Source: Alphaproteobacteria bacterium
Lineage (GTDB): Bacteria > Pseudomonadota > Alphaproteobacteria > Micropepsales > Micropepsaceae
DNA length: 40,138 bases
NCBI GenBank assembly: GCA_018971835.1
Contig: JAGWZW010000027.1
Span: 1 to 40,138 of the forward strand
Direction of reading: 5' to 3'
Shown: one piece after another, positions 1,626 through 23,207 of the stretch
Layout of the letters: every line of letters begins with the position of its first letter
Position numbering within the stretch: the stretch's first letter is position 1
Made by a program: the position numbers and the translations under genes
The notes under the pieces: generated by a model
The model's database searches: none
Told to the model about the DNA's origin: nothing
The model's input: only the letters and a program-made list of their open reading frames with translations

Positions 1626-3011
1626 TTGTATTCGCGTGACGCGGTCGCGCCGTTCTCAAGAGAAGAACCAAACTTGTTCGAAGCACTTGGCACCCGGAAG
1701 TGGGACTTTGCGACGACCGGCGCCGACGCACAGATTCAGATTGCCAAGGGCATGGTGTTTCTGCGGGCGGAGACGCGGGCCGCCGAGCCGGAAGCGGTCG
1801 CGGGCGCGGTTTCCGACCGGCCGGACCTTTGTCCGGTGCCGCTCGCGCGCGCCGGAAACATGCTGTTTGATTTGAGCCAGGGGCTGCTGACGGGGATTGC
1901 GGCGCTGGTTTCGGCTGCCGGCTATCGCGACTTGCTCCTTCAATATATCGGAAGTCTGACCGGTTCGGCAGGCCCCGGATATCCCGCAGTCCTGTTCGCG
2001 CGGGCGACTGCTCCGCACCCTCTCGCAAAATATCTCGGGGCAAAACTCGTCACGCGGCAGGACGTGCTCATCATCTCCGCTCAGCGCGACACGGCGGGCC
2101 TCCGTGCGAAATTGGGGAATGATCTGATACAACCCAATGTCGTCGCCTTTGCGGCGTGCGGGCGCCGTGCCGACTGGCGGGAGATTCAGGATCGCATCGT
2201 GCGCCAAGTTTGCGCGCAGTCTCTGGCGTCGCCGGGCTGCGATATCTTTTTGATCGAAGAAGGCTTTGAACCGGAGCAGATCCGCGAACTCGTAAACGGG
2301 CTTCGGGTCTTGCCGGTCCAAATCTCATTCGTCCCGAACCGCGACAACAATGCGCGGGGCAGGCGCCCGGATTGCACGGATCTGCATGCCTCCGAACTCC
2401 AGCGCCCGCCAATGAACCGGCTTCAGTGCGGCATCAAGCGTGGGCTGGATATTGCCCTGTCGGGCATCGCCCTCATGGCGCTGGCGCCGTTGCTGCTGCT
2501 GATTGCCGCCGCCATCCGGCTCGAATCAAGCGGGCCGGTGCTATTCCGCCAAAGACGGCTTGGCCGTTATGGCAGGCCGTTCACCATCCTCAAATTCCGC
2601 ACCATGCAGGTCGAGGAAGAAGGCCCCGACCTCAAGCAGGCCACGCGCGACGATCCGAGGGTCACGCGCGTGGGCCGGATACTGAGGCGCTCCAGCCTCG
2701 ACGAACTCCCGCAATTGCTCAATGTCCTGCGCGGCGAAATGAGCCTCGTAGGGCCGCGCCCGCACGCCGTCGTCCATGACAGGCAGTTCGCGCAATTGGT
2801 CGAGCATTACGAAGTCCGCCAATATGCCAAGCCTGGCATCACCGGTTGGGCGCAGGCCAATGGCCTGAGAGGCGAAACCTCGTCTCATGACCGTGTGCGG
2901 CGCCGGATCGAATACGACCACTATTACGTCCGTAACGCGAGCCTTTGGCTCGATCTGAAAATCCTGCTTCTGACATTGCGCGAAATCTTCAACCAGGAGC
3001 ACGCGTATTGA
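1626..3011 (+). CDS. Undecaprenyl-phosphate sugar-1-phosphate transferase (initiating EPS transferase)
   Basis: The C-terminal 200 residues are a clear bacterial sugar transferase domain (polyprenyl phosphate hexose-1-phosphate transferase; WbaP/WcaJ/PssY/HfsE group). There is one membrane segment ([20 protein letters not shown]), then [24 protein letters not shown] (split motif), [23 protein letters not shown] and [16 protein letters not shown]. This enzyme starts the repeat unit by moving a sugar phosphate onto undecaprenyl phosphate at the inner membrane. The middle region resembles the nucleotide-fold domain common in this group ([30 protein letters not shown]). Unusually, the four N-terminal membrane spans of the long family members are not visible. 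The start is uncertain: TTG 1626 gives 461 residues but has no good ribosome site; TTG 1674 is preceded by AGAAG; ATG 1752 and ATG 1860 are alternatives. Confidence 0.85.
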
Positions 3012-3090: not shown

Positions 3091-3711
3091 ATGCCGGCTG
3101 CTATTCGTTTGAAGACATGTGAGTCCGCTGAACGGCCAAAGTCGGCGCAGAGCGACGGCGCGGCGTGCAGCAATAATTGCGCCCCTCGGCCTTCCGGCGC
3201 GATATGGGAAGAGGCCGCCCGCTGGTATGTCGCGCGGACCAGGCCCGCTGCCGAAGGGCGCGCGCTCTTGAATCTGCAGCGGCAAGGTTATCGGGTTTTC
3301 CTTCCACAGATGCGAAAAGTCGTCCGCCACGCGCGCAAGGTGGAAGCGAGATTGGCTCCCCTGTTTCCCGGTTATCTCTTCATTTGTCTTGATCTCGGCT
3401 TCGAGCCCTGGGGCGCCATTAACAGCACCTATGGCGTAGCGCGGCTCGTCACGCAGAACGAGCGGCCGCAACCTATGCCGGCCGGGTTGGTTGAAGGTCT
3501 GCAAGCGCAGATCGGTGCGGACGGCGCCTTCTCATGGCGGCCCCAACTCAGGATCGGTCAACCGGTCAAGATTGCTGAAGGGCCGTTTGCGAATTTCGTT
3601 GGTGTTCTTGAGCATCTCGACAGCGCGGGGCGCGTGCGCGTCCTGCTGGACATGCTGGGACGCTCGGTTTCCGTTGCGTTGCGGAGCGAAGCATTGGTTC
3701 CCGTGGCGTAG
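3091..3711 (+). CDS. RfaH-like transcription antiterminator (specialised NusG paralogue)
   Basis: A 206-residue protein with an N-terminal NGN domain and a C-terminal KOW-type domain. After a poorly conserved 40-residue leader it reads WYVARTRP...LLNLQRQGYRVFLP, APLFPGYLFICLD and INSTYGVARLV (NGN, about 45-125), then IGQPVKIAEGPFANFVGVL (KOW, about 155-200). Aligned by eye to E. coli RfaH, positions equivalent to R16, R23, Q24 and T72 are kept, K10 is Arg, H20 is Asn and R73 is Tyr; several of these contact ops DNA in RfaH as I recall the literature. RfaH-type proteins ride RNA polymerase through long polysaccharide operons and suppress pausing and Rho termination. A perfect ops-like element follows 61 bases after its stop. 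This is not the housekeeping NusG, which would be expected beside secE and rplK. Confidence 0.85.
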   Translation: MPAAIRLKTCESAERPKSAQSDGAACSNNCAPRPSGAIWEEAARWYVARTRPAAEGRALLNLQRQGYRVFLPQMRKVVRHARKVEARLAPLFPGYLFICLDLGFEPWGAINSTYGVARLVTQNERPQPMPAGLVEGLQAQIGADGAFSWRPQLRIGQPVKIAEGPFANFVGVLEHLDSAGRVRVLLDMLGRSVSVALRSEALVPVA

Positions 3712-3748
3712 CGCGTAAACGCTGCCGAGGAAATGACCGTCGCCAAGA

Positions 3749-3767
3749 GGTGAAACGCGATTTCACC
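3749..3767 (+). other. Intergenic stem-loop upstream of ops-like element
   Basis: GGTGAAA-CGCGA-TTTCACC forms a perfect 7-bp stem with a 5-base loop. It is not followed by a T-run, so it is not a standard intrinsic terminator. It ends five bases before the ops-like element, in the gap between the RfaH-like gene and algD. It may be a pause or attenuation hairpin, or help present the ops signal. Confidence 0.5.
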
Positions 3768-3772
3768 CCGAT

Positions 3773-3784
3773 GGCGGTAGCGTG
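3773..3784 (+). promoter_or_regulatory. ops-like element (RfaH recruitment signal)
   Basis: GGCGGTAGCGTG is identical to the core of the enterobacterial ops (operon polarity suppressor) element found in JUMPstart leaders. It is in the noncoding gap between the RfaH-like gene (stop at 3711) and algD (ATG at 3834), on the transcribed strand orientation in which ops acts. In E. coli the element pauses RNA polymerase and its exposed non-template strand recruits RfaH. The location beside an RfaH-like gene and ahead of about 20 kb of EPS genes supports the same role here. Activity in this organism is inference. Confidence 0.6.
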
Positions 3785-3833
3785 GAATGGCGGCTGCTCT
3801 CGCCATGCGCGGCGAATACGAAGTGAGGTCAGC

Positions 3834-5147
3834 ATGAAGATCAGCGTATTCGGGCTGGGCTACGTCGGTGCGGTTTCGGCCGGATGTCTGACCGCCGCCG
3901 GCCACGAGGTGGTAGGCGTGGATCCGGCCGCCATCAAGGTTGACCTTATCAACGACGGCCGATCGCCGGTCATCGAAGAAGGGCTGGATGAATTTATTGG
4001 CCGGGCCGTACAGGCAGGCCGCCTGAGAGCCACGCAAGACGTTTACGATGCAATTCGCTCGACGGATTTATCGCTGGTCTGTGTCGGAACCCCGAGCAAG
4101 CCCAATGGCGATCTCGATCTTCGCCACGTTGCTGCGGTAAGCCGGGAAGTGGGCGAGGCGCTTTCCATGAAAAACGGGCGGCATACGGTTGTGATCCGCT
4201 CTACCGTGATGCCCGGCACCACGCGCGGCCTGGTGATCCCCCTCCTGGAAAAGGCGAGTGGGCGGCAAGCCGGCACGGGTTTCGGCGTCGGCAACAACCC
4301 GGAATTTCTTCGCGAAGGCACGGCGGTAGCGGACTTTTTTCATCCCCCGAAAACGGTCATCGGCGCTGTTGACGGGCAGACTTCCGACGATATCGCCGCA
4401 TTGTATGGCGATCTTCCTGCGCCGCTCATCCGCACCTCAATCGAGGTCGGCGAGATGGTCAAGTATTGCGACAACGCGTGGCACGCGCTGAAGGTCACCT
4501 TCGCAAATGAAATCGGAACGACGTGCAAGGCCGCTGGAATCGACAGCCACGCGGTGATGGACATCTTTTGCAAGGACAGCAAGTTGAACCTCTCCTCCAC
4601 CTACCTCAAGCCTGGGTTCGCCTTTGGTGGATCGTGCCTGCCAAAGGATGTTCGGGCGCTCGCCTACAGGGCGCGCTCTCTCGACCTCGATTTGCCGGTA
4701 CTGAACGCGATTTTGCAATCCAACGAACGGCAGATCAGCCGGGGCTTCGATCTCATAACTGCTCGCGGCAAGCGCGCTGTCTCGTTTCTCGGCGTCAGCT
4801 TCAAGGCCGGTACGGACGATCTGCGTGAGAGCCCGATACTGGAGCTTGTGGAACGCTTGATAGGAAAAGGCTATGACGTGCGGATTTTCGACAAGAACGT
4901 CAGTCTGTCGAAGTTGGTAGGTGCCAATCGCGAATTTCTTCTCAAGAGCATTCCTCATGTCTCCTCGCTGCTGGTCGGATCGCTTGACGAGGCGCTGTGC
5001 CACGGTGAGACGATCGTCGTCGGCACGCGCGATCCGGCGTTCATGAAGATCGGGGAACGCCTGCGTCCGGAGCATTTTCTCGTGGACTTGGTGCGCATTG
5101 AAGCCCGGCAGCAACTTGACGGGCGCTACGATGGAATCAACTGGTAG
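3834..5147 (+). CDS. algD: GDP-mannose 6-dehydrogenase (AlgD type)
   Basis: A 437-residue NAD-dependent nucleotide-sugar dehydrogenase. AlgD oxidises GDP-mannose twice to GDP-mannuronate. It has the Rossmann motif GLGYVGAVSAGCL (7-19), the GTPSKPNGDLD segment (85-95), and the catalytic cysteine in FAFGGSCLPKDVRAL at Cys268, the same number as in Pseudomonas AlgD. Long AlgD-like stretches such as SFKAGTDDLRESP and KSIPHVSSLLV favour AlgD over UDP-glucose dehydrogenase (Ugd), though I could not run a tree. The start is ATG 3834 with GTGAGG upstream; the longer frame from 3750 would run through the hairpin and ops-like element and adds nothing conserved. No alg8/alg44-type polymerase is present, so the mannuronate is probably a residue of a Wzx/Wzy-type repeat unit. 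Confidence 0.88.
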   Translation: MKISVFGLGYVGAVSAGCLTAAGHEVVGVDPAAIKVDLINDGRSPVIEEGLDEFIGRAVQAGRLRATQDVYDAIRSTDLSLVCVGTPSKPNGDLDLRHVAAVSREVGEALSMKNGRHTVVIRSTVMPGTTRGLVIPLLEKASGRQAGTGFGVGNNPEFLREGTAVADFFHPPKTVIGAVDGQTSDDIAALYGDLPAPLIRTSIEVGEMVKYCDNAWHALKVTFANEIGTTCKAAGIDSHAVMDIFCKDSKLNLSSTYLKPGFAFGGSCLPKDVRALAYRARSLDLDLPVLNAILQSNERQISRGFDLITARGKRAVSFLGVSFKAGTDDLRESPILELVERLIGKGYDVRIFDKNVSLSKLVGANREFLLKSIPHVSSLLVGSLDEALCHGETIVVGTRDPAFMKIGERLRPEHFLVDLVRIEARQQLDGRYDGINW

Positions 5148-6360
5148 CACGCCCATGCGCGTCCTGATCATTGTCGAGAACCTGCCGGTTCCGTTTGACC
5201 GCCGCGTGTGGTCGGAGGCAACGACCCTTGCCCACGCAGGCTATGAAGTGTCGGTGATCTGCCCAAAGGGGAAAGGTGCGACAGCCTCCTTCGAGATCAT
5301 CGACGGCGTCCATATATTTCGTCATCCTCTTCCCGTTGAAGCACGTGGAGCGCCAGGCTACCTCCTCGAATACGGGGCGGCGCTCTTTTGGGAGTTCGTG
5401 CTAAGCCTCAGGGTGCTGTTTGGCCGGGGCTTTGACGTGATCCAGGCGTGCAATCCGCCGGACCTGCTTTTCATTATCGGGGCATTCTACAAGTTTGTAC
5501 TCGGGAAGAAGTTTGTATTCGACCATCATGACATAAATCCCGAGCTTTATGAGGCCAAGTTCGGCAAGCGCGGCCTGCTCTGGCGCGTCGTGGTGCAGCT
5601 CGAACGGTGGACTTTTGCGCTCGCGGATATTTCCATTGCCACCAACGAATCCTATCGTGCGATAGCGATCGAACGCGGGCGGATGAAACCGGGCCGGGTG
5701 TTTGTTGTGCGATCGGGGCCGACATTATCCCGGGTTTGCGCCCGGCCGCCCGACGATGGGTGGAAAAATGGGCGAAAATATCTGGTCGCATATGTCGGTG
5801 TTATTGGCTGCCAGGAGGGGCTGGACTTGCTCCTGCACTCCGTCGCCTACATCCGGAATTCGCACAGGCGTACCGACGTTCAATTCGTGATCGTCGGCAT
5901 TGGGCCCGAACTGGAGCCGATCAAAAGATTAGCTGGCAAATTGCTATTGGAGGGTCTTGTAACCTTTACCGGCCGCGTCGACGACGACACGCTCTTCACG
6001 ATTCTTTCCACTGCGGACGTTTGCGTTAACCCGGACCGCCCAAACGCCATGAATGACCGGTCAACCATGAACAAAATCATGGAGTACATGGCGATCGGAA
6101 AACCCATCGTCCAGTACGATCTTCGCGAGGGGCGCCATTCGGCCGGCGAAGCGTCGCTTTATGCCCGCAACACCGACCCAGACGACTTCGCCCGGAAGAT
6201 ACTCGAACTTCTTGCCGATGCGCCGCGCCGCAAAAGCATGGGCGAGTTCGGCAGGCGGAGGGTTTTAGGCGAACTTTCGTGGCAGCACGAGGCGCCCAAG
6301 TTGTTGGAAGCGTACGCGTCCCTGCGCGGTGCGCGTGAATGTGAACCGTTACCGAACTGA
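5131..6360 (+). CDS. Glycosyltransferase family 4 protein
   Basis: A 409-residue GT-B retaining glycosyltransferase. The N-terminus RVLIIVENLPVPFDRRVWSEA is typical of bacterial GT4 enzymes in surface polysaccharide loci. The donor-side C-domain has LVAYVGVIGCQEGLD, FVIVGIGPELE, VTFTGRV and MNKIMEYMAIGKPIVQYDL, where the glutamate of the EYMAxGKP motif contacts the nucleotide sugar. It should add one sugar to the lipid-linked repeat unit on the cytoplasmic face; donor and acceptor cannot be read from sequence. ATG 5131 overlaps the algD end by 17 bases, suggesting translational coupling; ATG 5155 is an alternative. Confidence 0.85.
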   Translation: MESTGSTPMRVLIIVENLPVPFDRRVWSEATTLAHAGYEVSVICPKGKGATASFEIIDGVHIFRHPLPVEARGAPGYLLEYGAALFWEFVLSLRVLFGRGFDVIQACNPPDLLFIIGAFYKFVLGKKFVFDHHDINPELYEAKFGKRGLLWRVVVQLERWTFALADISIATNESYRAIAIERGRMKPGRVFVVRSGPTLSRVCARPPDDGWKNGRKYLVAYVGVIGCQEGLDLLLHSVAYIRNSHRRTDVQFVIVGIGPELEPIKRLAGKLLLEGLVTFTGRVDDDTLFTILSTADVCVNPDRPNAMNDRSTMNKIMEYMAIGKPIVQYDLREGRHSAGEASLYARNTDPDDFARKILELLADAPRRKSMGEFGRRRVLGELSWQHEAPKLLEAYASLRGARECEPLPN

Positions 6361-6479
6361 TGGAAATGTGCCGCCTTGAAAGGCTCGCGGCGTGCGGGCC
6401 CCGTCTGCTCTGCGCAGGCTACCGTCAGTGCGGTAAGCGCGCATCGATCGCGTTTGTGCTGCCTGTGTGATCGTCGATC

Positions 6480-7886
6480 ATGTCACTCACCACAAGACAA
6501 TACATTTTGAAGGGTGCCCCCTGGGCGGCTACCGGGCGCATAGTCTATGCGGCGCTAGGGTTCTCGACATCTGTGCTGCTTGCGCGCCTGCTGACGCGAA
6601 GCGACGTGGGACTGTATTTCCTGTCGATCAGCCTCTCGTCTTTCATTGCGATATTCGCCAGGGCCGGGATGGACAACGTGCTGTTGCGGCGAATTTCCGG
6701 AAGTATCGGCAGCGGCCGGCCTCAGGAGGTTGTCGCAGCGACCAAGTGCGCAATGCGGGTCGTTACGATATCAACACTTCTCTGTGTAGCAGGCTATCTT
6801 GTCGTCGGCCCCGGGCTGACGCCCTGGCTGTTTCCGGTCTCCCGGTTGAATATGGTAACGGTGCCGACCGCCCTTTGGATTGGAGCCCTCGCGCTGCAGA
6901 TGACGCTTACGGAAGTGCTGCGCGGCTTCAAGGACATACGCGGCGCGGCGCTGACTGGCGGCATCACAAATTCCGCGCTGTTCGTCGTTCTGTTGCTGGT
7001 CGTGGCGCTCGCCGGCGGGCGGTCGTATCTGAATGCGACGGTCGTACTGTGGCTCTCGTTGGCGGCGGCGGCTGTCAACATCGTTCTGGCCGCGGCGCTC
7101 GTTCTTACCGCAAGCCGGGCGCTGCCGCACGAAGCTGTATCCACGTTGTCGGCGCGGAAGCTCCTTAGTGAAGCGTGGCCACTGATGCTGGACAGCGTCG
7201 TGCTCTTCGGCCTTGCGAACATCGGGCTGTGGGTTGTGGGCGCGATGTTGTCCGCGGAGCAGGTCGCCATTTACGGGATGGCCCTCCGTCTTGTGACCTT
7301 GGTGTCTATGCCAACGCAGATCGCCAATTCCGTCCTGCCGCCGCTGATGTCCCAACTATACGTGCAGGGCAGATTGCGAGAGCTCGAGAATATCGTACGG
7401 AAGACCACCACGTTGATAGCGCTGCCGATGTTGCTCGTGCTGCTGCCGCTCGTGCTTTATGGCGGAACGATACTGGCCGCCCTTTTCGGACCGGCGTACC
7501 GTGAGGGCGGGGCAGTTATCGGTTATCTGGCGCTCGCACAGGCAGCAATGGTTGTCGCGGGTTCGTCCGGGTTTCTTCTTATCATGACGTCGCATCAACG
7601 GGCTGCGGCGGCAATTTCGACGTCGGCCGCTGTCGCGTACTTGCCATTGGCCATAATGGCGGCAAAACCCTATGGCGCGGCGGGGGCCGCATTCGCTTTC
7701 TTATGCGTAATGACCGTAACGAAAATTGCGCAGGTAATAGTTGCACGTGTGCGCGTCGGAATATGGACTCAGTTCGATGTAACGAGCCTAAATCGGTCGA
7801 GTTTGAAGAGGCTCGTACGAAAAGCAGTCGAAAGAAGGTCGCCTGTACATGACGATCGGGCCTCCGACGGGGCGCGCTATGGTTGA
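6480..7886 (+). CDS. Wzx-type polysaccharide repeat-unit flippase
   Basis: A 468-residue integral membrane protein of the MOP superfamily (polysaccharide synthesis group). Hydrophobic segments run through the whole chain, about 12 to 14 spans, with the family-like N-terminus ILKGAPWAATGRIVYAALGFSTSVLLARLL and a second-half start at EAWPLMLDSVVLFGLANIGLWVVGA. Members flip undecaprenyl-diphosphate-linked oligosaccharides across the inner membrane. A 119-base gap without clear signals separates it from the upstream glycosyltransferase. The C-terminal 30 residues are polar and basic, likely cytoplasmic. I leave the symbol blank because Wzx sequences are too divergent for a firm name. Confidence 0.85.
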   Translation: MSLTTRQYILKGAPWAATGRIVYAALGFSTSVLLARLLTRSDVGLYFLSISLSSFIAIFARAGMDNVLLRRISGSIGSGRPQEVVAATKCAMRVVTISTLLCVAGYLVVGPGLTPWLFPVSRLNMVTVPTALWIGALALQMTLTEVLRGFKDIRGAALTGGITNSALFVVLLLVVALAGGRSYLNATVVLWLSLAAAAVNIVLAAALVLTASRALPHEAVSTLSARKLLSEAWPLMLDSVVLFGLANIGLWVVGAMLSAEQVAIYGMALRLVTLVSMPTQIANSVLPPLMSQLYVQGRLRELENIVRKTTTLIALPMLLVLLPLVLYGGTILAALFGPAYREGGAVIGYLALAQAAMVVAGSSGFLLIMTSHQRAAAAISTSAAVAYLPLAIMAAKPYGAAGAAFAFLCVMTVTKIAQVIVARVRVGIWTQFDVTSLNRSSLKRLVRKAVERRSPVHDDRASDGARYG

Positions 7887-8715
7887 TGGCGTAATAGCGA
7901 GCGTCGCCCGGCGGCCTGAACGAACAGGAGTAACGGGACGCATACTGTACCAAGGCCTGCGAAATTGCAGAGACGCGATCTCGGCCGCTTCCGCACTTGC
8001 ATTTGCCTCCGACAGGCACCCGCTGGAGCCGAAAGAGTATTCTTTGCTCCCGGAGCACAGCATTGCCTATCTGGTGATATCGAAGGTGGCCTGCAGCTCC
8101 ATCAAGGCGGTTATGCTCTCTGCCGTTTCCGAAGACCAGCTGGCAGATGATTTTTCCGTGCACAGAAGCACAGCGTTGCAAAGGCGCCTTGGAACGCTGA
8201 GTGGCGACGAGGCGTCGTACTACAAATTTACGTTTGTCCGAAATCCGTTTGCAAGGCTGGTTTCTGCGTACGTCAACAAATTTGAAACGCTGGACGTGGT
8301 CCGGCTCAATGGATACAGCCGATATTTGAACGGCATTATTTCACTGGATATTTCGTTCGCTGAATTTTGCCGGCTGGTGGCCGGCATTCCGGACCGCTTG
8401 GCCGAGCGGCATTTTAAGTCACAATATTCTACTGTCTACGATGGCGCCCGCTGCTGTGTAGACTTCGTGGGCAAGTTCGAGAACCTTCGTGCCGATTTTT
8501 CCAGGATTCCCTTGCTGGGCGAGCGCGCATGTCTGCCGCACTTCAATCGATCGCAGGGCTACGACTTTCGTTCCTATTACACGCGCGACCTGGTCCGCCT
8601 GGTCGCGGACCGTTACCGGAACGATATCGAGGCATTTGGATATCATGGCGCGGCAGCAGAACTCGATGAATATTGCAGGGGGCACGATATCGCCCAAGGC
8701 GGCGCCGGCGCATGA
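7849..8715 (+). CDS. Carbohydrate sulfotransferase (Sulfotransfer_2 type, PAPS-dependent)
   Basis: A 288-residue protein with both PAPS-binding motifs of the Golgi chondroitin/dermatan/HNK-1 sulfotransferase family. The 5'-phosphosulfate loop is VISKVACSSIK (76-86), like the PKVACSN loop of the animal enzymes. The 3'-phosphate motif is FVRNPFARLVSAYVNKF (129-145), equivalent to RDPFERLVSAF. Such enzymes move sulfate from PAPS to a sugar hydroxyl or amino group. Between the flippase and a glycosyltransferase in one operon, its substrate is most likely the EPS repeat unit, which implies a sulfated polysaccharide. It overlaps wzx by 38 bases. ATG 7849 has AGAAGG upstream; ATG 7879, overlapping the wzx stop, is an alternative. 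No signal peptide is seen, so it should act in the cytoplasm. Local GC is low: I count 25 of 60 in 8221-8280. Confidence 0.85.
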   Translation: MTIGPPTGRAMVDGVIASVARRPERTGVTGRILYQGLRNCRDAISAASALAFASDRHPLEPKEYSLLPEHSIAYLVISKVACSSIKAVMLSAVSEDQLADDFSVHRSTALQRRLGTLSGDEASYYKFTFVRNPFARLVSAYVNKFETLDVVRLNGYSRYLNGIISLDISFAEFCRLVAGIPDRLAERHFKSQYSTVYDGARCCVDFVGKFENLRADFSRIPLLGERACLPHFNRSQGYDFRSYYTRDLVRLVADRYRNDIEAFGYHGAAAELDEYCRGHDIAQGGAGA

Positions 8716-9977
8716 AAATATTCTACGCGACCGTTGACGAATATCCGCCGTTCCGGGTCGATGTCGTTCAGCTGTTCGGTGTGTTCGTTGCGAGGAGTGG
8801 GATAGAAATAGATTGGTGGATGCGGCCGGTCGCGCCAGGAAAGCGGACCGTTGTCACGGGCGAATATGGGCAACGCTACTGGATATCGTGGCGCCCGCGC
8901 GCGGTCGGCCTGGTTGGGAACGCGGCGCGCGCGATAGCGGCGTTGCTGCATCTCGTCGGTGGGCTGTTCAGGGCAATATCCGGAGATCATGAAATCGTTC
9001 AGGTACGAGACTTGCCGCTCTCAGCGATATTTTACCTTGCTGCTGCCAGGTTGGCGCGCCGGCGCTTTGTCTATTGGATGTCATTCCCTATGCTGGAGGG
9101 ACGGCAGGCGAGGTTAGCCGATCCGGCTGTCCGGAGCCGGCGCCTCAAGGTTCTTGCTGTTCGTCTATATGTCATGATCGCCAAGCCGGTCCTTTATCGC
9201 GTTGTGCTGCGCTGCGCGGATCACGTATTTGTGCAGAGCGAAGAGATGAAAAAGGTCATTGCCGCCAAGGGCGTGCCAAGCAGGTTGATGACGGCCATAC
9301 CGATGGGCGTCAACGTAGACCTCTATAACACGGAAACTGTGGCAATAGCGGCTTTGCACGAAGCAGGGGGTCGTAGGGTTCTATGTTATGTCGGCGCCAT
9401 AGAATCGATCCGCCGCCCGGAACTGATAATAGAGTCTTTGGCGTTGGTCAGGCGGTCGGGGTTTGCCGTGGTTCTTCTCATGATCGGCGCGCCCGATGGC
9501 CCCGAGAAAGAGAAATTGCGCCGGACCGCAGAATTGCTCGGCTTGAGCGATGATGTGATCTGGGTGCCGTTCTTGCCACTTGCCAAGGCGCTGTCCTACG
9601 TGAAGCGCGCGGATATCTGCCTGGCGCTTTGCCCAGACACGCCACCTCTCTCTGTGGCGTCACCCACAAAGCTTGTGGAATACCTGGCGATGGCGCGCCC
9701 GGTGGTGGCAAACGAGCATCCCGATCAGAGGTGGGTCATCGCGGCAAGCGGCGCGGGTCTTTGTGTTCCGTGCACCGCGGACGGTTTCGCCAAAGGTATC
9801 ATAAGCCTGCTGCGCGATCCGGCGCGCGCTTCGGTGGCGGCGAGCCGTGGCCCGGCATGGGTTCGAGAGCACCGATCTTATGCGCATTTGTCCGCCAACG
9901 TGGTGAGTACTTATCAGCAGATGTTGAAGCCGCAAACGCATGAAGGGCGTTCCCTGAAGCGGCGGGTGTGTGAATGA
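8712..9977 (+). CDS. Glycosyltransferase family 4 protein
   Basis: A 421-residue GT-B protein. Its N-half is divergent with hydrophobic stretches (AARAIAALLHLVGGLF, AIFYLAAARLA) that suggest membrane association. The C-half has PMGVNVDLYN, VLCYVGAIESIRRPE, VVLLMIGAPDGPE and SPTKLVEYLAMARPVVANE, the last being the nucleotide-sugar site with its conserved glutamate. Presumed role: adding one sugar to the lipid-linked repeat unit. ATG 8712 overlaps the sulfotransferase stop in an ATGA arrangement, so the two are translationally coupled. Sugar specificity is unknown. Confidence 0.82.
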   Translation: MKIFYATVDEYPPFRVDVVQLFGVFVARSGIEIDWWMRPVAPGKRTVVTGEYGQRYWISWRPRAVGLVGNAARAIAALLHLVGGLFRAISGDHEIVQVRDLPLSAIFYLAAARLARRRFVYWMSFPMLEGRQARLADPAVRSRRLKVLAVRLYVMIAKPVLYRVVLRCADHVFVQSEEMKKVIAAKGVPSRLMTAIPMGVNVDLYNTETVAIAALHEAGGRRVLCYVGAIESIRRPELIIESLALVRRSGFAVVLLMIGAPDGPEKEKLRRTAELLGLSDDVIWVPFLPLAKALSYVKRADICLALCPDTPPLSVASPTKLVEYLAMARPVVANEHPDQRWVIAASGAGLCVPCTADGFAKGIISLLRDPARASVAASRGPAWVREHRSYAHLSANVVSTYQQMLKPQTHEGRSLKRRVCE

Positions 9978-11323
9978 TGCGTCTGCACGCTCGCCATACC
10001 GGTGTAATAGTTTTGTTTATACTGGTGGCAACCCTGTTCAACTATCAATTCTTCAATTGGGCGCTCATAAACAGCGCAGTATTTGCCGATTATCAGTCCG
10101 GGGTCACGGTATCCAGTCCGTTGTACATGGCCGTCAAGGTCGGCCTAACGGTTTCGGCGGTGGGCTTACTTCTGATCCATCACAAGCGCTCGGTGAAGTA
10201 TCTCGGCCTTGGCGCTCCGGCAACCGCTTTGATGCTGTGGGCCATATTGACGGCAGTCTGGTCGGCGGATCGACTGGGAACCCTCCAGGCAGCGTTATCC
10301 TATGCCGCAACCCTTGCTCTTGCATTGGCAGCGGTGACGCTCACATCGCTCGAGAAAGCCAAAAAAATCCATCTGATTGCCGTGGCTCTGGTGATTGTCG
10401 GCAGCTATGCCTTGGTGTTGTTCGTGCCCAAAGTGGGCGTACACCAGGTAACGGATTCGGTGGCCCAAGTTCACGCCGGAGATTGGCGAGGCACTTTCGA
10501 TCATCGCAGTTCGTTTGGCGAATTCATGGCCTTTGCCTTTGGCTTGTTCCTGTGCTTTCGCCGGACGTGCGGGCGGTGGTTAAGCCTCATAGGCATGCTT
10601 GCAGCACTAGCCGGCGTCATAATGAGCCGGTCCGGCGGCTCGCTGGCATCCGCAGTCCTGATTGCCGCCTGCTATTTGATATATGGAGCGTACGCGCACC
10701 GCCGCCTTAACGGGCGGTTGCTGATGATGCTGGGAGCATGTCTGTCGCTTGCGGTGGTTGCTGCGTTGTCTGGCGTGGTCGTTCCCGAACTTCTCTTGCT
10801 GTTCGGCAAAGACCCGACCCTCACCGGCAGAACACTTATCTGGACGCCGCTGATGTACCTGATCTGGAAAAATCCTGTTCTTGGTTATGGTTTCGAAACG
10901 GGATATGGGCATTACGCAGCGCCATTGGTGTGGGATTATACTCACACACTATACAATGCGCACAATGGCTACATTTTGGCGATGATCTATTGTGGCGCGA
11001 TTGGAACAGCGTTGTTGATCGCGGTATTCGGGCATATCGGTTATATCGTGCTCTCCTCCAAAGCGAAGCCAGGGACGGCGGGCTATGAGGTCATGGCCTT
11101 CGGTTTTGTGTTTTCGGTTTACGCGTTGTGGATCAGCGTGATCGAGGGATTCATTATGTCAAGATCCAGTTACCTGGCAGGAGCAACTTGGCTTACCTAT
11201 TTTCTCGTGCTGCGAGCCGATAACGATTTGCGCCGCGCCCGGGCGTGGTGTTCGCTTGTTGCAAGAAACGGGAGACTGTCAGGCGTTCTTCCCGGGAATT
11301 TGTCGCGCGCTGCAGCTCGGTAA
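9974..11323 (+). CDS. Wzy-type O-antigen/EPS polymerase
   Basis: A 449-residue multi-spanning membrane protein of the O-antigen ligase/polymerase family (Wzy_C type). About 10 to 12 hydrophobic segments are visible. Family hallmarks are WRGTFDHRSSFGEFMAF (about 165-181; compare the usual W-R-G-x-F-x-H-K-N motif) in a large periplasmic loop, and TLTGRTLIWTPLMYLIWKNPVLGYGF followed by NAHNGYILAMIYCGAIG. It should join flipped repeat units into polymer in the periplasm. ATG 9974 overlaps the upstream glycosyltransferase stop (ATGA). A WaaL-type ligase role cannot be excluded, but with Wzx and Wza/Wzc nearby polymerase is the better reading. Confidence 0.82.
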   Translation: MMRLHARHTGVIVLFILVATLFNYQFFNWALINSAVFADYQSGVTVSSPLYMAVKVGLTVSAVGLLLIHHKRSVKYLGLGAPATALMLWAILTAVWSADRLGTLQAALSYAATLALALAAVTLTSLEKAKKIHLIAVALVIVGSYALVLFVPKVGVHQVTDSVAQVHAGDWRGTFDHRSSFGEFMAFAFGLFLCFRRTCGRWLSLIGMLAALAGVIMSRSGGSLASAVLIAACYLIYGAYAHRRLNGRLLMMLGACLSLAVVAALSGVVVPELLLLFGKDPTLTGRTLIWTPLMYLIWKNPVLGYGFETGYGHYAAPLVWDYTHTLYNAHNGYILAMIYCGAIGTALLIAVFGHIGYIVLSSKAKPGTAGYEVMAFGFVFSVYALWISVIEGFIMSRSSYLAGATWLTYFLVLRADNDLRRARAWCSLVARNGRLSGVLPGNLSRAAAR

Positions 11324-11420
11324 CGCTGACTTTACAGCGGCTCGATTTCGTGCCCGTCGTGTAGCGAAGAATCTGGCGCGCCGCGTTTGGAGGCGGGGCG
11401 CAACCGTTCACGCCACATCG

Positions 11421-11588
11421 GCGATAACAGGTTCTGTGCGTATCGGTTCGGGCGCCGTAGCTGCTGCAAATGCGGCTATCACCTGTGACGTGCGGCCATG
11501 TTGCCTGGTGGCCGGGGGCTCCGCCGCCATAAAGCGACCGGCAATCGATGCGCGGTTCTATCGCCGTGGCTGTAGGGCGGCTCTTTAG
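11421..11588 (+). pseudogene. Remnant of a hexapeptide-repeat acyltransferase C-terminus
   Basis: In one frame this stretch reads AITGSVRIGSGAV, ANAAITCDVRPCCLVAGGSAA and IKR, matching the end of left-handed beta-helix acetyltransferases (IGxGAVVGANAVVTKDVPPYxIVAGNPAxVIK). No start codon, ribosome site or N-terminal acyltransferase sequence precedes it in this frame; upstream it runs into the end of the polymerase gene. Several usual residues are changed (DVRPCC for DVPPY, GGSAA for GNPA). I read it as a decayed fragment, evidence that an O-acetyltransferase gene was once between the polymerase and galE. Chance similarity in a GC-rich frame is possible. Confidence 0.45.
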
Positions 11589-11833
11589 CCGACGTAGCTG
11601 TCGCAATACGCATGAAGTTAGGAACAGCTAATCGGGTCCAGGTTCGCTGTCGGCGCGAGTCCATTGCGTCTGGATCACAGATGCTGCCGAGGAAGAGTTT
11701 CGGACTCTTCTCGATCATGGTGCGGAATGATCCGCCGCGAGTTCTCAGTGTCCCCGTCCAATGTGCCGGTCCTTGCTCGTCCGCGGTGCGGCCTTGGCGT
11801 CGCGGTCTATTTGGAGGATAGCGGAGACCACCT
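11589..11833. other. Noncoding gap before galE, with a stem-loop
   Basis: No gene is recognisable. The one clear structure is GAAGAGT-TTCGG-ACTCTTC at 11692-11710, a perfect 7-bp stem with a 5-base loop and no T-run after it. Together with the acyltransferase remnant just upstream this makes about 500 bases without an intact gene, the longest break inside the otherwise tightly packed first half of the cluster; a promoter for the galE segment could lie here but I cannot point to one. Confidence 0.4.
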
Positions 11834-12814
11834 ATGGCCATACTTGTTACCGGAGGGGCCGGTTACATCGGCAGTCATATGACCTACGCGCTAATTGATC
11901 GCGGCGAGGAGGTAGTTGTGCTGGATAACCTCTCGACCGGAAGCCGTTCACTAGTCTGCAAGGATGCAACGTTCATAGAAGGTGACGTTGGCGATCATGC
12001 CCTGGTACGACGAATCGCCGAAGCGTATCGGATTGAGAGCGTTATACACTTTGCAGGTTCGGTTGTGGTGCCGGAGTCTGTTGCAATTCCGTTGGCCTAC
12101 TATGCCAACAATGCGATGGCCTCGCGCTCGCTCATCGAAGCCTCTGTGGAATCCGGCGTAGAGCACTTCATCTTTTCGTCCACCGCTGCGGTATACGGCG
12201 CAACACAGACCGGGAAGGTGGCGGAAAATGCGATCCGGGATCCGATCAGCCCGTACGGGCGTTCAAAGCTGGTAATAGAATGGATGCTGCAGGACACTTC
12301 GCGCGCATATCCCGAATTTCGCCACATGGCTTTGCGATATTTCAATGTCGCCGGCGCGGATCCCGCGGGCCGCACCGGTCAATCGACACCGCGTGCGACC
12401 CACCTCATCAAGCGGGCCTGCCAGGTGGCGCTGGGGCGCGTTCCTCATCTTGATATTTTCGGCACCGATTATCCGACGCCGGACGGCACGGGCGTACGAG
12501 ACTTTATTCACGTAGTCGATCTGGTTTCTGCTCACGTCCTGGCACTTCAGGCGCTGAGGGCGGGCGCCCGCTCCGCCTGCTACAATTGCGGGTACGGTAT
12601 CGGGATCAGTGTGCGGCAGGTCGTATCCGAGTTGGAGAAGATCGTCGGCCGGGCATTGCCGGTTAAAGAATGCGGCCGCCGCCCCGGAGACGGCGCGACA
12701 GTCGTTGCCGATCCGGCGCAGATCGAAGCCGGGCTTCATTGGCGCGCTGAACACGGCGAATTGAGAGAAATCATCGCCTCTGCACTCGAGTGGGAACGAA
12801 CCCTTGAGGCATAG
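11834..12814 (+). CDS. galE: UDP-glucose 4-epimerase
   Basis: A 326-residue extended short-chain dehydrogenase. It interconverts UDP-glucose and UDP-galactose with bound NAD. Visible are the NAD motif TGGAGYIGSH (6-15), LDNLSTG (30-36), the substrate segment FSSTAAVYG (about 114-122) with the catalytic serine/threonine, the YGRSK catalytic pair (Tyr141, Lys145), MALRYFNVAGAD, and DGTGVRDFIHVVDL. These are GalE hallmarks, so function is secure, though UDP-GlcNAc or uronate epimerisation cannot be excluded. GGAG lies 7 bases before ATG 11834. It probably supplies UDP-galactose for the repeat unit. Confidence 0.92.
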   Translation: MAILVTGGAGYIGSHMTYALIDRGEEVVVLDNLSTGSRSLVCKDATFIEGDVGDHALVRRIAEAYRIESVIHFAGSVVVPESVAIPLAYYANNAMASRSLIEASVESGVEHFIFSSTAAVYGATQTGKVAENAIRDPISPYGRSKLVIEWMLQDTSRAYPEFRHMALRYFNVAGADPAGRTGQSTPRATHLIKRACQVALGRVPHLDIFGTDYPTPDGTGVRDFIHVVDLVSAHVLALQALRAGARSACYNCGYGIGISVRQVVSELEKIVGRALPVKECGRRPGDGATVVADPAQIEAGLHWRAEHGELREIIASALEWERTLEA

Positions 12815-12865
12815 CAGCGGCGTGAGAGCGCTTGGCGCTCAAACCAGCCAGAACTGGAGTTCGCA

Positions 12866-14827
12866 TTGTGTGGAATAGTCGGATGGGCCGTTGCACGCGG
12901 CAAGAGCCAGAGTGCCGGGACGTTGCTCCACCTGGCCAATCTGCTGGCGCATCGCGGCCCGGATGGCGCCGGGCACTGGCTCGGCCACACGGCTGATGGG
13001 CGCTGTCAGATCGGCCTGGGCCACAGGCGCTTGTCGATCATCGATATCGGCGGCGGCGTTCAACCGATGTGGAGCGGCGACAGGGCGCACTGTCTGGTCT
13101 TCAATGGTGAAATTTACAACTATATCGAGTTGCGAGACGAATTGCGAAGGCTGGGTCATGGCTTTCGCACTGAGTCCGACACCGAGGTGCTGCTTGCGGC
13201 CTATCGCCAGTGGGGGGTGACGGCCTTGTCGCGCCTGCGCGGCATGTTTGCATTCGCACTTTGGGATGCCACCCGGCAGTGCCTTCTGCTGGCCCGCGAT
13301 CCGTTCGGGAAGAAGCCGCTTTTTATCGCCGGCGGGGAGGGCTTTTTTGTCTTCGGGTCCGAGATCGATCCGGTGCTGGCATTTCCGGGCGTCGGCCGGA
13401 ATTTCAATGTTGCGGCATTGGGTCACTATCTGCTGAACCGCTATGTTCCGGGCCCGGCTACGTTCTTCCGGGGCGTGCAGAAGCTGCAACCGGGCTGTTA
13501 TGGAGTGTGGGGTGGCGGCGATCTGGCGATCTCCCGCTATTTCACTCCGCCATCCGGCACGACAGAACCGGACATCGTCGCCTTCGAGGACGCATTGGCG
13601 CTGTTCGAGACGACGTTCGACGACGCCGTGCGAATTCGGATGCGCAGCGATGCTCCCTATGGAGCCTATCTCTCCGGCGGCATTGATTCCTCGGCGGTGG
13701 TCGCCGCCATGTCGCGCCATAGCGGTGCGCGAATTCGAACGTTTTCGGTGGGCTTCGAAGACGCCCGCTATTCGGAGCTGGATCATGCGCGAACTGTAGC
13801 TTCGCATTTCGGCACCGATCATCACGAGCTGGTCGTCACGCCGCAGGCGTTCATGGAACATTGGCCGTCCGCCCTACGCAGCCGCGGCGCGCCGGTGAGC
13901 GAGGCATCGGATATTCCGATCATGATGCTGTCCCGCATGGCATCGCAGTCCGTGAAAATGGTTCTGACGGGCGAAGGTTCCGATGAGCTGCTGGCGGGCT
14001 ATCCAAAGCATCGCGCGGAGCAATGGATAACGCGCTATCAACGGGCGATGCCCGGAATATTGCACGACGGGCTGGTCGCGCCGCTGGTCCGCGCGCTGCC
14101 CTATGGATTTCGCCGCCTCAAACTCGCAGCATGTGCCGCCGGCGAGCGCGATCTGTCCGCCCGTATGCGCCTGTGGTTCGGCGGTATCCCGGCGGCGGAG
14201 CGCGATAACATCCTGGGGCACGCCGCGCCATCGGAGCCAGACGATCCCTATCCCTATTCGGCGGCGATCGGATCGGACGTTCGCCGCACGCTGTTCTTTG
14301 ATCAGACCTCGTGGCTGCCCGATAACCTGCTGGAGCGCGGGGACCGCATGATGATGGCCGGTTCGATCGAAGGCCGGATGCCGTTTATGGATACGGCCCT
14401 CGCGCAGCTCGTCGCGCGGTTCCCCGATCGGTTCCTGCTTGGCCGCAAGGGCGGCAAGGCCGTGCTGCGGGCGGCAATGGACAAGGTGCTTCCGGAAGCC
14501 ATCGTGGCCCGAAAAAAGGTCGGCTTTCGGGTGCCGGTCGATGAGTGGTTCCGCGGGCCCTACCGCAATCTGGTCAGGGAGTTGCTGACAAGCTCCGAGA
14601 CCAGGATCACGCGGTTTTGCAGCACGCAAACTTTGCGTCGGCTGGTCGATGATCACATCGAAGGCCGCCAGAATAACGAGAAGGCGCTTTGGGCGCTGGC
14701 CAACCTCGAGATGTTTACGCGCATCTTCAACCTCGTCGAAGGCGACGATATGCCGGCGGGAGATGGCGCGCTCATCGCAATGCCGGCTCCTCGGGGCGAT
14801 ATGGCGCAAGGCGCGACTTATGGCTGA
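12866..14827 (+). CDS. asnB: Asparagine synthase-type glutamine amidotransferase
   Basis: A 653-residue class II glutamine amidotransferase/ATP-dependent amide ligase. The mature protein would start with the nucleophile Cys2 (MCGIVGW). The glutaminase half (1-200) has HRGPDGAG, HRRLSIID and FNGEIYNY. The synthetase half has the pyrophosphate loop LSGGIDSS near 268-275 and LTGEGSDELLAGYPKH. The start is an unusual TTG at 12866 with TGGAG upstream. In EPS and O-antigen loci such proteins often amidate sugar carboxylates (uronamides) rather than make asparagine; with AlgD in the same cluster, amidation of a uronic acid is plausible but unproven. Its last bases overlap the next glycosyltransferase start. 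Confidence 0.88.
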   Translation: MCGIVGWAVARGKSQSAGTLLHLANLLAHRGPDGAGHWLGHTADGRCQIGLGHRRLSIIDIGGGVQPMWSGDRAHCLVFNGEIYNYIELRDELRRLGHGFRTESDTEVLLAAYRQWGVTALSRLRGMFAFALWDATRQCLLLARDPFGKKPLFIAGGEGFFVFGSEIDPVLAFPGVGRNFNVAALGHYLLNRYVPGPATFFRGVQKLQPGCYGVWGGGDLAISRYFTPPSGTTEPDIVAFEDALALFETTFDDAVRIRMRSDAPYGAYLSGGIDSSAVVAAMSRHSGARIRTFSVGFEDARYSELDHARTVASHFGTDHHELVVTPQAFMEHWPSALRSRGAPVSEASDIPIMMLSRMASQSVKMVLTGEGSDELLAGYPKHRAEQWITRYQRAMPGILHDGLVAPLVRALPYGFRRLKLAACAAGERDLSARMRLWFGGIPAAERDNILGHAAPSEPDDPYPYSAAIGSDVRRTLFFDQTSWLPDNLLERGDRMMMAGSIEGRMPFMDTALAQLVARFPDRFLLGRKGGKAVLRAAMDKVLPEAIVARKKVGFRVPVDEWFRGPYRNLVRELLTSSETRITRFCSTQTLRRLVDDHIEGRQNNEKALWALANLEMFTRIFNLVEGDDMPAGDGALIAMPAPRGDMAQGATYG

Positions 14828-15941
14828 AACCAGGCCGATGCGGCGTTTGAGGGTGGCGGTTGTCACGCCGCTCGGCGTTGGCGGCCGCGGCGGGATAGAT
14901 CGCCTTATGGATGAGTTGCGCCCGCTACTTGCGAAAGAAGAGGCGTCGGGCATCCACGTTCGCTTCCTGGTAAGCCGCGGCAGTGGCAGCATAGTGTTCT
15001 CGCCGTTCCATCTTGCGCGCGCTGTGACAATCATCGTGCGCGACGGCCTGCTTCGCAGGGTCGATGTCGTTCACATCAACCTGTCCCAGGACGGCAGCGC
15101 CTATCGCAAGCTGATCATCGCGTGGGTGTGCCGGAGACTGAAACTGCCCTATGTCCTCCACTTGCATGGCTCGAACTTCCATACCTTTTGGGACAGTGCG
15201 GGCCGGCGGCTGAGCCGTGCGCTCACGACGATGTTTGCCTGCAGTGCGATGACCGTCGTACTCGGCACCGTTTGGCTCAACTTTGTAATGCGCAAGGCTC
15301 CTGCTCTTGCCTCGAGGATCGTCATTCTTCCCACTGCTGCGCGCGATCCCGGGCAGCGGAGGACGCAGCAGAGCGGCAAACCGCGCCGGATTTTCTTCTC
15401 CGGTCAGCACGGCCCGCGCAAGGGTACTCGCGAACTCATCGGCGCGCTGAACAGGCTCAAGTGCGATCCGTCGTGGAGCGCCACAATGACTGGAAACGGC
15501 GCGATCGATCAAACGCGCGAGGCGGCGAAATCGGCGGGAATCGCGGATCGGGTGACGATCCCCGGCTGGATTCCTAGCAGCCAATTCGAAGCGTTGCTGG
15601 ATGAAGCGGACATTTTGGTGCTGCCTTCGCATGACGAGAACCTGCCTCTCTCGGTGGTTGAAGCATTTGCGCGGGGCATTGCGGTAATTGCCACGCCGGT
15701 CGGCGCACTGCCGGATATCATCAAGGATGAACAGACCGGGCTGCTGGTACCTGCAGGCGACGTCGCTGCGCTTGCCGCGGGAATCGAACGCCTCCTTCAT
15801 GACGATGTGCTGCGGGCCCGCTTGGGCAGTGCAGGCCGGAGTGTCTACGAGGAGCGGCTGACGTTGCCGGCGTACGCGCGGCGCCTCGCCGAAACCTGGC
15901 GTCAGGCGCAGCACAATTTCGCGGACGAAGCCGCGCGCTAG
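14820..15941 (+). CDS. Glycosyltransferase family 4 protein
   Basis: A 373-residue GT-B protein with a full GT4 pattern: RVAVVTPLGVGGRGGIDRL (6-27 region, acceptor domain glycine loop), YVLHLHGSNFH, RRIFFSGQHGPRKGT (donor phosphate-binding Arg/Lys), VTIPGWI, and the E-x7-E motif in SHDENLPLSVVEAFARG. Presumed to add one sugar to the repeat unit; specificity unknown. ATG 14820 overlaps the asnB stop by 8 bases, so the pair is translationally coupled. Confidence 0.87.
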   Translation: MAETRPMRRLRVAVVTPLGVGGRGGIDRLMDELRPLLAKEEASGIHVRFLVSRGSGSIVFSPFHLARAVTIIVRDGLLRRVDVVHINLSQDGSAYRKLIIAWVCRRLKLPYVLHLHGSNFHTFWDSAGRRLSRALTTMFACSAMTVVLGTVWLNFVMRKAPALASRIVILPTAARDPGQRRTQQSGKPRRIFFSGQHGPRKGTRELIGALNRLKCDPSWSATMTGNGAIDQTREAAKSAGIADRVTIPGWIPSSQFEALLDEADILVLPSHDENLPLSVVEAFARGIAVIATPVGALPDIIKDEQTGLLVPAGDVAALAAGIERLLHDDVLRARLGSAGRSVYEERLTLPAYARRLAETWRQAQHNFADEAAR

Positions 15942-16086
15942 CCGGCACAGGAAGATCGCCGCCTACAGCCATGTGCCGATCCACGCATTCGCCGTGGCGT
16001 CGAAAATCGTGCCGGCGTTCGCGCGCGGTCAAGGAAAGCCGGACGCCCGGCGGGTCGATCATCGTTTCCAGCAACGGGGTAGATTG

Positions 16087-16731
16087 ATGTTGAGATATGT
16101 CAAGACGGCGGCGAAGGAAGCCCTGGCGCCGGTTCTTTACAAACATCCGCCGAGCGGCCTGGCGCCGGAGCGGCTGGCGATTTACCTCACGGCGTTGCTT
16201 GAGCGCCGCGAACTGCCGGGCGATGTTGCCGAGGTGGGATGCAATATCGGCGGCACGGCGGCAATTGCCGCCCGTATGCTGCGGCGCGTCGAAAACCGCT
16301 CGCGATATATCTGCTACGACACGTTTGGCGGCTTTGTTCCCGAGCAGTTCTCGGCGGACGCGCGGACAGGCACCACGGAAAACTCGCGCACCATGTTCTC
16401 AGCAAACTCCACGCGGCTGGTGCGGAAGATCCTTGATTTGCACGATTGCGAGCACGTCGAACTCGTCGCCGGCGACATCGCGACAGTTGCGGAAGGTCTG
16501 CTTTCACCGGTCTACAGCGTTGTGCTCGTCGACGTCGATCTTTCGGAGCCGACCTACGTTGCTCTCAAGCGCTTTTGGCCGCGGCTGGCACCGGGAGGCG
16601 CGATATTTGTAGACGATTGCCAGGAAGATGGGGAATGGAAGGCGCAGGTGGGATATCGGCGCTTCTGTTCGGAATATTCGCTGCCAGAGGAATACCACTT
16701 CGGACTGGGCGTTCTGCACCGGAGCCTGTAG
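16087..16731 (+). CDS. TylF/MycF-type SAM-dependent O-methyltransferase
   Basis: A 214-residue class I methyltransferase of the macrocin-O-methyltransferase (TylF) group, which methylates sugar hydroxyls. Motifs are GDVAEVGCNIGGTAAIAARML (split; SAM motif I, about 40-60), the YDTFGGFVP segment characteristic of the group, LVDVDLSEPTYVALKRFWPRLAPGG and the metal-binding-type IFVDDC. In an EPS cluster it likely O-methylates a repeat-unit sugar. The frame is open back to 15973, but conserved sequence begins at MLRYVK and GGGGTAG lies six bases before ATG 16087. The 145 bases upstream (15942-16086) show nothing recognisable. Confidence 0.8.
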   Translation: MLRYVKTAAKEALAPVLYKHPPSGLAPERLAIYLTALLERRELPGDVAEVGCNIGGTAAIAARMLRRVENRSRYICYDTFGGFVPEQFSADARTGTTENSRTMFSANSTRLVRKILDLHDCEHVELVAGDIATVAEGLLSPVYSVVLVDVDLSEPTYVALKRFWPRLAPGGAIFVDDCQEDGEWKAQVGYRRFCSEYSLPEEYHFGLGVLHRSL

Positions 16732-16798
16732 GCGCAGATCGGCGGATCCTCTTAAGGCGGAAGGGCCTTCTGGCAATGCCCGAAAGGTTGTTCGCCCA

Positions 16799-19884: not shown

Positions 19885-19890
19885 GCGCCG

Positions 19891-22547: not shown

Positions 22548-22556
22548 CGAGGCATC

Positions 22557-23174: not shown

Positions 23175-23207
23175 CTGGGCATTGGACACATTCACGAAAT
23201 TGCGCAT

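Follow-up and report, generated by a model that had tools for sequence, protein, structure and literature searches.

A candidate hairpin–ops loading site beside an RfaH-like gene, and its recurrence in Alphaproteobacteria

How RfaH-like proteins find their targets is described for few of them. Passages in papers of 2019 and 2020 give the recruitment mechanism as known for no specialised NusG paralogue except E. coli RfaH (PMC6391919, PMC7593976), and the statements we draw on from papers of 2019–2021 likewise treat the recruitment of the other specialised paralogues as unknown and suggest action in cis. An RNA hairpin has meanwhile been linked with LoaP, in Bacillota (PMC12691694). An alphaproteobacterial contig raises the question in concrete form: within a polysaccharide locus, the gene for an RfaH-like protein is followed by the 12-mer GGCGGTAGCGTG, which also forms part of the E. 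coli JUMPstart element (100% matches). Could this be the site at which the protein loads onto RNA polymerase? The window, as we call the whole stretch analysed, is this 40,138-base contig, from a draft genome of 3.67 Mb (162 contigs, 96.7% complete).

The window locus and its RfaH-like protein

The + strand of the window holds a putative operon in the order class I/II aminotransferase, WcaJ-like, rfaH-like, element and UDP-sugar dehydrogenase, as a preliminary description of this DNA had it. Its features are as follows.

1626..3011, + strand: polyprenyl glycosylphosphotransferase (WcaJ/EPS_sugtrans-like), proximal gene of the putative operon (Pfam/NCBIfam matches)
3091..3711, + strand: RfaH-like NusG paralogue (NGN + KOW), 206 aa (Pfam NusG; TIGR01955; model; structural match)
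3712..3833, + strand: noncoding gap of 122 bases holding the element (no promoter-like or terminator-like match in the gap)
3745-3784: match to the covariance model R1 (built from alignment A3, see below), 18.6 bits, E 0.02
3749..3767, + strand: 7-bp RNA hairpin GGTGAAA-cgcga-TTTCACC, window copy of the conserved hairpin (letters; folding; class-wide hairpin support)
3773..3784, + strand: ops element GGCGGTAGCGTG, with the core GCGGTAGC at 3774-3781 and T11-G12 at 3783-3784 (direct reading; recurrence downstream of RfaH-like genes)
3834..5147, + strand: UDP-glucose/GDP-mannose dehydrogenase family gene, first gene past the element (Pfam/NCBIfam matches)
5098..24176, + strand: putative target genes (Pfam/NCBIfam matches)
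25076-26308: further Poly_export gene

The genes at 5098..24176, which would lie on a single transcript, encode glycosyltransferases, a flippase-like protein, a sulfotransferase, Wzy_C, GalE, an amidotransferase and methyltransferases, as well as heparinase II/III-like, epimerase, NTP transferase/HAD and SIS proteins. About 20 kb of exopolysaccharide genes had been claimed downstream, and polysaccharide-type genes do continue 3′ of the element to about 24-26 kb. The element lies on the non-template strand, upstream of these putative targets, and begins 61 nt past the RfaH-like stop codon. Direct reading confirms that its 12 bases equal the E. coli ops core and stand five bases past the hairpin; TG is present at positions 11-12, making U11 a putative pause position. 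An intrinsic terminator or internal promoter in the gap was considered and rejected, as none is listed there. Use of the ops RTG as a start codon was rejected as well, and in the window the RTG is out of frame with the dehydrogenase gene.

The protein carries both an NGN and a KOW domain (Pfam, model and structural match). Its NusG NGN domain is found at 2.4e-19 (Pfam NusG), and the conserved domain starts at about residue 43. The best NCBIfam model is TIGR01955 RfaH, at 99.6 bits; because this falls short of the equivalog cut-off of 144.5, we call the protein RfaH-like rather than RfaH in the strict sense. The LoaP model NF033641 gives 47.7 bits, under its cut-off of 125. In an AlphaFold2 model (61-row alignment; pLDDT 94.8, pTM 0.74) the KOW domain consists of beta strands. 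The structure closest to this model is RfaH in the ops-recruited complex 8pen, over the NTD (Z 14.9, 2.0 A over 101 residues), and the KOW part resembles the NusG KOW 2xhc (0.8 A over 55).

We compared the residues with which RfaH reads DNA, namely K10, H20, R23 and R73, which make side-chain contacts, and Q24 and T72 in the interface. Their window equivalents are R10, N20, R23, Q24, T72 and Y73. The R23, Q24 and T72 equivalents named in the preliminary description are thus all present, and H20, R73 and K10 are changed. E48 is replaced by A. On the single model at hand, E. coli-type autoinhibition (alpha-helical KOW, E48-R138 contact) is not predicted for the window protein, and a fold switch is possible.

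Recurrence of the element beside RfaH-like genes

The exact 12-mer has a single copy in the draft genome, where a reversed control pattern has five. Copies with at most two mismatches number 11 in the window against a shuffled mean of 6.85, and 7 of 100 shuffles reach 11. With so mild an excess in number, the 12-mer is significant by its place and conservation, not by its count.

A protein search of 37 genomes of the genus, the window's own included, found an RfaH-like gene at E <= 2e-20 in 13. Reading downstream at 13 such loci showed a TCACC-type arm separated from the core by a short spacer in 11; GCGGTAGC is exact in nine, and L003 and L004 have a core with one mismatch. The exceptions are L007, without an element, and L021, which has the 12-mer without the arm. 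One genome of the set (G028, locus L002) has two tandem RfaH-like genes, each with its own hairpin–ops unit (1437-1480 and 2090-2135, - strand). At G032:C60:15540-16085, in the same genus, a second RfaH-like frame holds three internal TGA codons and is probably a decayed copy.

Across 385 genomes of the class, profile A1 found 92 RfaH-like loci in 89 genomes at 109 bits or more; the next matches, at 95.4 bits or less, are presumably mostly housekeeping NusG. Besides the window this leaves 91 loci, of which we examined 80, leaving out the 11 lowest-scoring. At 26 of the 80, GCGGTAGC follows the gene on the same strand within 0-400 nt, and any other 500-nt bin, on either strand, contains it at only 0-4 of the 80. 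R1 and the core combined, with L099 counted across two overlapping contig ends, place a canonical element directly downstream at 31/80 loci; two more (L165 and L168) have a variant and were counted apart. A further 10/80 have an element 0.9-8 kb from the gene, on either strand and in some cases in a divergent leader, and R1 and the core found no element in the examined stretch at 37/80. Placement of the element beside its regulator, as proposed from the window, is thus not universal.

The association is also seen at the level of whole genomes. R1 matches at E <= 1e-3 occur in 43 of the 385 genomes, and 38 of these 43 have an RfaH-like gene, against 89/385 overall (Fisher p 1.8e-22); the profile search did not find one in the remaining five. 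Since six of the 20 sequences in A3, from which R1 was built, come from these genomes and lie beside RfaH-like genes, we removed the six source genomes from the table, which leaves an RfaH-like gene in 32/37. The earlier proposal was to be given up if relatives showed no excess of the ops core next to genes of this type; the enrichment proved very strong. A side observation is L327 (G070:C16:275891-275933), a strong element of 39 bits in a genome where no RfaH-like gene was detected. On a tree the element occurs in both deep clades, patchily, with 21 changes against a shuffled mean of 27.3 (5/500 shuffles are as low).

The perfect match to E. coli seen in the window is not the norm in the class. 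Among 34 sites beside RfaH-like genes selected by the 8-mer core alone, T11 is present in 30 and G12 in 24, and position 1 is mostly T (27/34). The constancy of the core at these sites is no evidence by itself, as the core was the search string. The description of the element as a perfect ops-like 12-mer thus holds for the window and fails as a rule: relatives keep GCGGTAGC, mostly with T at position 1. Two kinds of core variant were also seen. L165 (6141-6161, + strand) and L168 (5356-5376, - strand), from two genomes of one family, have ACACCCGNTTTGCGGAGCGTG, which lacks the T6 position, and the neighbouring proteins carry E23, R24 and S or A at 72. A T6-to-C core, GCGGCAGC, lies beside RfaH-like genes at L098, L120, L122 and L004.

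Among the 31 element-adjacent proteins, Q24 is found in 29, T72 in 30, R23 in 18, H20 in 14, R73 in 12 and K10 in none. E48 is E in three and lost in 28, and R138, its contact partner, is kept in all 31. Taken with the beta-KOW model, the loss of E48 suggests that ops sites exist without fold-switch autoinhibition. Q24 and T72 do not mark the element sharply, as RfaH-like proteins without an element in the stretch mostly have both residues too (30/37 and 31/37). A canonical element lies within the stretch for 2/11 proteins without Q24 and 39/69 with it (p 0.024, uncorrected for kinship); this association and that of E23/R24 with the T6-less core come from few lineages and are only suggestive.

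We also scanned genomes of named species with the pattern TCACCCGRANKGCGGTAGCRTG, independently of any protein, which gave at least 119 stretches, with 80 loci among the matches listed. At 63/80 sites among the matches listed, the core follows the end of a same-strand RfaH-like gene by 45-198 nt (median 65); this count keeps near copies (L178, L189), and three loci have less than 200 nt upstream. By record labels, confirmed in taxonomy for Aquibaculum and Kiloniella, the sites among the matches listed are mostly alphaproteobacterial (Methylocystis, Bradyrhizobium, Nitrobacter, Kiloniella, Thalassospira, Roseospira and many MAGs); some are labelled Proteobacteria only, and a few Delta-, Zeta- or Gammaproteobacteria. 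The next ORFs, scanned at 76 of 77 sites among the matches listed (L189 was dropped), include Epimerase at 22 and Polysacc_synt_2 at 18, in overlapping sets. By raw count, the ops RTG is in frame with the next long ORF at 14/77 sites.

Elements are not confined to the position behind the gene. The core-only search found divergent elements upstream of the RfaH-like gene at L134, L137, L138 and L143, and elements kilobases downstream that keep the TCACC-type arm (TCACCC). R1 copies lie on other contigs or far off, for example 647 kb away in G295. At 20 distant elements, 18 next ORFs were scanned (L335 and L338, weak matches, were dropped), giving RmlD 4, DegT 4, Epimerase 4, Polysacc_synt_2 3 and ABC transporter 3, with overlaps. 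The sequence is therefore probably read in trans too, and the hairpin does not need an rfaH-like gene before it.

The arrangement of gene and element is not unique to the window organism, and it also occurs outside the class. In other classes of the phylum we read 30 of 37 RfaH-family matches, three of them with less than 220 nt downstream. Seven (L298, L302, L303, L307, L308, L309 and L312) have the exact 12-mer 59-308 nt after the gene, and the L312 element is the same as that in the Zetaproteobacteria-labelled L237. In the other 23/30, among them the family with the best scores, the available DNA shows no core in the first 400 nt past the gene. At L298, L302, L303, L307, L308 and L309 the exact E. 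coli-type ops lies 64-308 nt after RfaH genes, with differing predicted folds before it; the folds before the out-of-class 12-mers have raw predicted energies of -4.0 to -17.7 kcal/mol.

The hairpin before the ops element

Across the 34 sites selected by the core alone, TCACC occupies a near-fixed spot before the core. The same conservation in the named genomes carries no weight, because TCACCCG is part of the search pattern; the core-selected sites do count. For folding, 113 sites were reduced to 106 by removal of identical ones. We then compared native hairpins with chimeras that join the left arm of one site to the right arm of another, an arm-swap test that tolerates shifted arms. At the 34 core-selected sites the native energy is -14.05 kcal/mol against a permuted mean of -11.91 (z -6.1), and at 72 pattern-selected sites the native hairpins are again steadier than the chimeras (z -11). 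In A3, an alignment of 20 sequences of equal loop length, 84.5% of cells pair, both partners vary in 5 of 11 pairs, and the covariation score is 0.233 against 0.114 in shuffles (0/500 as high); this result is favoured by the choice of the alignment, which was picked for its good pairing and its equal loops. When the four stem pairs nearest to ops were scored rigidly and without gaps, the excess was modest: 77 cells paired where permutation gave a mean of 65.5 (sd 3.7), and 165 where it gave 155.5 (sd 4.5). Apparent loop length differs widely among sites. Arm-swap energies, covariation and near-fixed spacing together show that the hairpin and ops, paired in the preliminary description of the window, are conserved as a unit.

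The window hairpin is a weak copy of this conserved hairpin. Folded in isolation it has only moderate stability (-7.3 kcal/mol, with z -1.9 and -2.4 in two cuts of the stretch), and its short stem stops 5 nt short of ops position 1, which puts it about 16 nt from U11. With 18.6 bits against R1, the window element was not recovered by a whole-genome R1 search at E 0.05. A separate observation concerns window 3712-3783: once ops has been transcribed, the RNA can refold, with the upstream ACGCUGCC pairing with GGCGGUAGCGU (-27.3 kcal/mol, z -2.5).

In the predicted folds, the last paired base falls 0-4 nt before ops position 1 at 32/34 sites, that is, 11-15 nt from U11. Hairpins 10-13 nt from the RNA end are described as stimulating pausing, and at 11-13 nt they are believed to prevent backtracking, with hisL at 11 (passages in PMC10268239). 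The predicted spacing of the conserved hairpin is thus near that of pause hairpins. PMC11001881 and PMC6391919, in the relevant parts, class the E. coli ops pause with backtracking pauses and set it apart from those stabilised by a hairpin. For the E. coli JUMPstart letters used, which match E. coli at 100%, folding puts the end of the stem 1 nt ahead of position 1, so the spacing geometry is common to both.

A candidate loading site among known systems and rival readings

By its makeup, the system fits the working of RfaH–ops and JUMPstart, with a protein that is RfaH-like by score and an element far below the JUMPstart gathering score. It shares with E. coli RfaH/ops an NGN-KOW protein whose NTD is structurally nearest to RfaH in the ops complex, the equivalents of Q24, T72 and R23, the 12-mer, and polysaccharide genes downstream. 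Unlike E. coli RfaH, the window gene sits inside its putative target operon with the element after it, the KOW domain is modelled as a beta barrel, E48 has become A, H20, R73 and K10 are not kept, and the protein scores below the TIGR01955 cut-off. JUMPstart RNA (RF01707) likewise has a stem-loop directly before ops (5 nt before it in the window), and the window aligns with the RF01707 model end to end, yet it scores 14.2 bits (L116, 11.3) where the gathering score is 35. No Rfam family reached its gathering score in the 15 sources scanned, and a known Rfam family for the element was rejected on this ground. The hairpin arms of the class are of the GGGTGA/TCACCC type, those of JUMPstart CTGG/CCAG, and classic JUMPstart sites stand in 5′ leaders, whereas the window element follows the regulator gene. 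The portion of a 2010 paper used here lists JUMPstart for gamma-Proteobacteria (PMC2864571). LoaP, from Bacillota, also combines a NusG paralogue with an RNA hairpin and a regulator near its own operon; in the account we draw on, its hairpin, unlike that of the window, is of the UNCG type, with no discernible pause and no ops core described (PMC12691694). A resident regulator of long operons is likewise a trait of UpxY, TaA and other operon-encoded NusG paralogues, and the passage that treats the UpxY/TaA type called its recruitment unknown in 2020 (PMC7593976).

We consider it very probable that the RfaH-like protein loads at the element at 3749-3784, directly after its own gene, with the hairpin assisting in a JUMPstart-like manner. 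By analogy with E. coli RfaH, RNA polymerase would transcribe the regulator gene and then arrive at the site, where the T11-G12 consensus pause would halt it as the nascent RNA hairpin forms behind. The non-template core, a GGTA loop closed by C3:G8, would be exposed and bound by the NGN domain. The protein would then stay on polymerase, keep NusG and Rho off and, as an antiterminator, carry it through about 20 kb of polysaccharide genes. As the protein looks non-autoinhibited, some of the specificity probably comes from loading near its own gene; that such elements also occur at distant places and in divergent leaders speaks for a reading of the sequence itself as well. In E. coli, changes at core bases 3-8 weaken or abolish RfaH recruitment, according to the part of PMC5995543 that deals with them. 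Against the loading-site reading stand the 37/80 element-less loci, the patchy tree, the 5/43 element genomes without an RfaH-like gene and the T6 variants beside RfaH-like genes; H20, R73 and K10, partly kept in the class, are lost in the window, whose stem, at about 16 nt from U11, lies outside the usual pause-hairpin range.

A non-autoinhibited protein might instead load onto the nearest polymerase in cis without reading DNA, the hairpin and TG acting as a pause only. The beta-KOW model and the loss of E48 would suit this account, as would the cis recruitment proposed in a passage of PMC6391919 and the ops-independent activity that a preprint, in the part concerned, ascribes to monomorphic homologues of RfaH whose genes adjoin their operons (PMC13015549). 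We think it unlikely: the central ops bases are given as dispensable for E. coli pausing (PMC5995543, in the section cited), yet within the loci the 8-mer core is enriched only beside the genes, and core-found copies kilobases off bear the same TCACCC arm. Comparably improbable, in our estimate, is that the RNA hairpin is the main recognition element and the ops core mainly a pause. The arm-swap and covariation results speak for recognition of this kind, and LoaP is described, where its target is treated, as binding a UNCG hairpin in the target leader (PMC12691694), but the apparent loop length is very variable between sites and the NTD is structurally nearest to RfaH bound at ops. A combined reading of hairpin and ops is possible.

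The median distance of 65 nt past the RfaH-like stop codon, at the 63/80 sites among the matches listed, could also point to an attenuator, 3′-end or processing signal that regulates the rfaH-like gene itself. The gap is without a terminator-like match, and elements of the same kind occur in divergent leaders and before other genes, which makes such a role quite improbable. Chance resemblance to ops draws some support from raw counts, since TCACCNNNNNKGCGGTAGC in the 385 genomes has 26 reversed-control matches against 73 real ones and the 12-mer in its own genome five control copies against one. Its probability is nonetheless negligible, and we reject it on the enrichment beside RfaH-like genes (26/80 downstream; 63/80 listed named sites) and the genome-level co-occurrence (38/43), to which the arm-swap test adds.

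More tentatively, and with greater doubt than belief, one may picture the pause hairpin and ops as an old, Pseudomonadota-wide loading device that began as a self-loading cassette, with ops reading predating autoinhibition. Polymerase would halt right behind the stop codon of its own antiterminator gene, and the ribosome finishing that gene would hand the fresh, non-autoinhibited protein to the same polymerase. E. coli RfaH, stand-alone, fold-switching and acting on JUMPstart sites in leaders, would then be the derived form.

In a literature search, mostly of non-subscription papers and largely by listing, no ops-like elements were named beside alphaproteobacterial RfaH-like genes. The surprising part of our findings is that ops-like sites accompany a protein of beta-KOW look. 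Part of a 2026 preprint ties beta-KOW RfaH homologues to ops-independent activity (PMC13015549), and the published order of RfaH evolution, as outlined in the source consulted, places ops contacts and autoinhibition late and together; our observation bears on that order. It also raises the possibility that the JUMPstart hairpin acts as a pause hairpin. The pairing of gene and element in many relatives suggests how RfaH-like proteins find their targets, and a conserved hairpin–ops unit beside a resident gene would be a concrete answer to the recruitment question for a large alphaproteobacterial group and some other Pseudomonadota.
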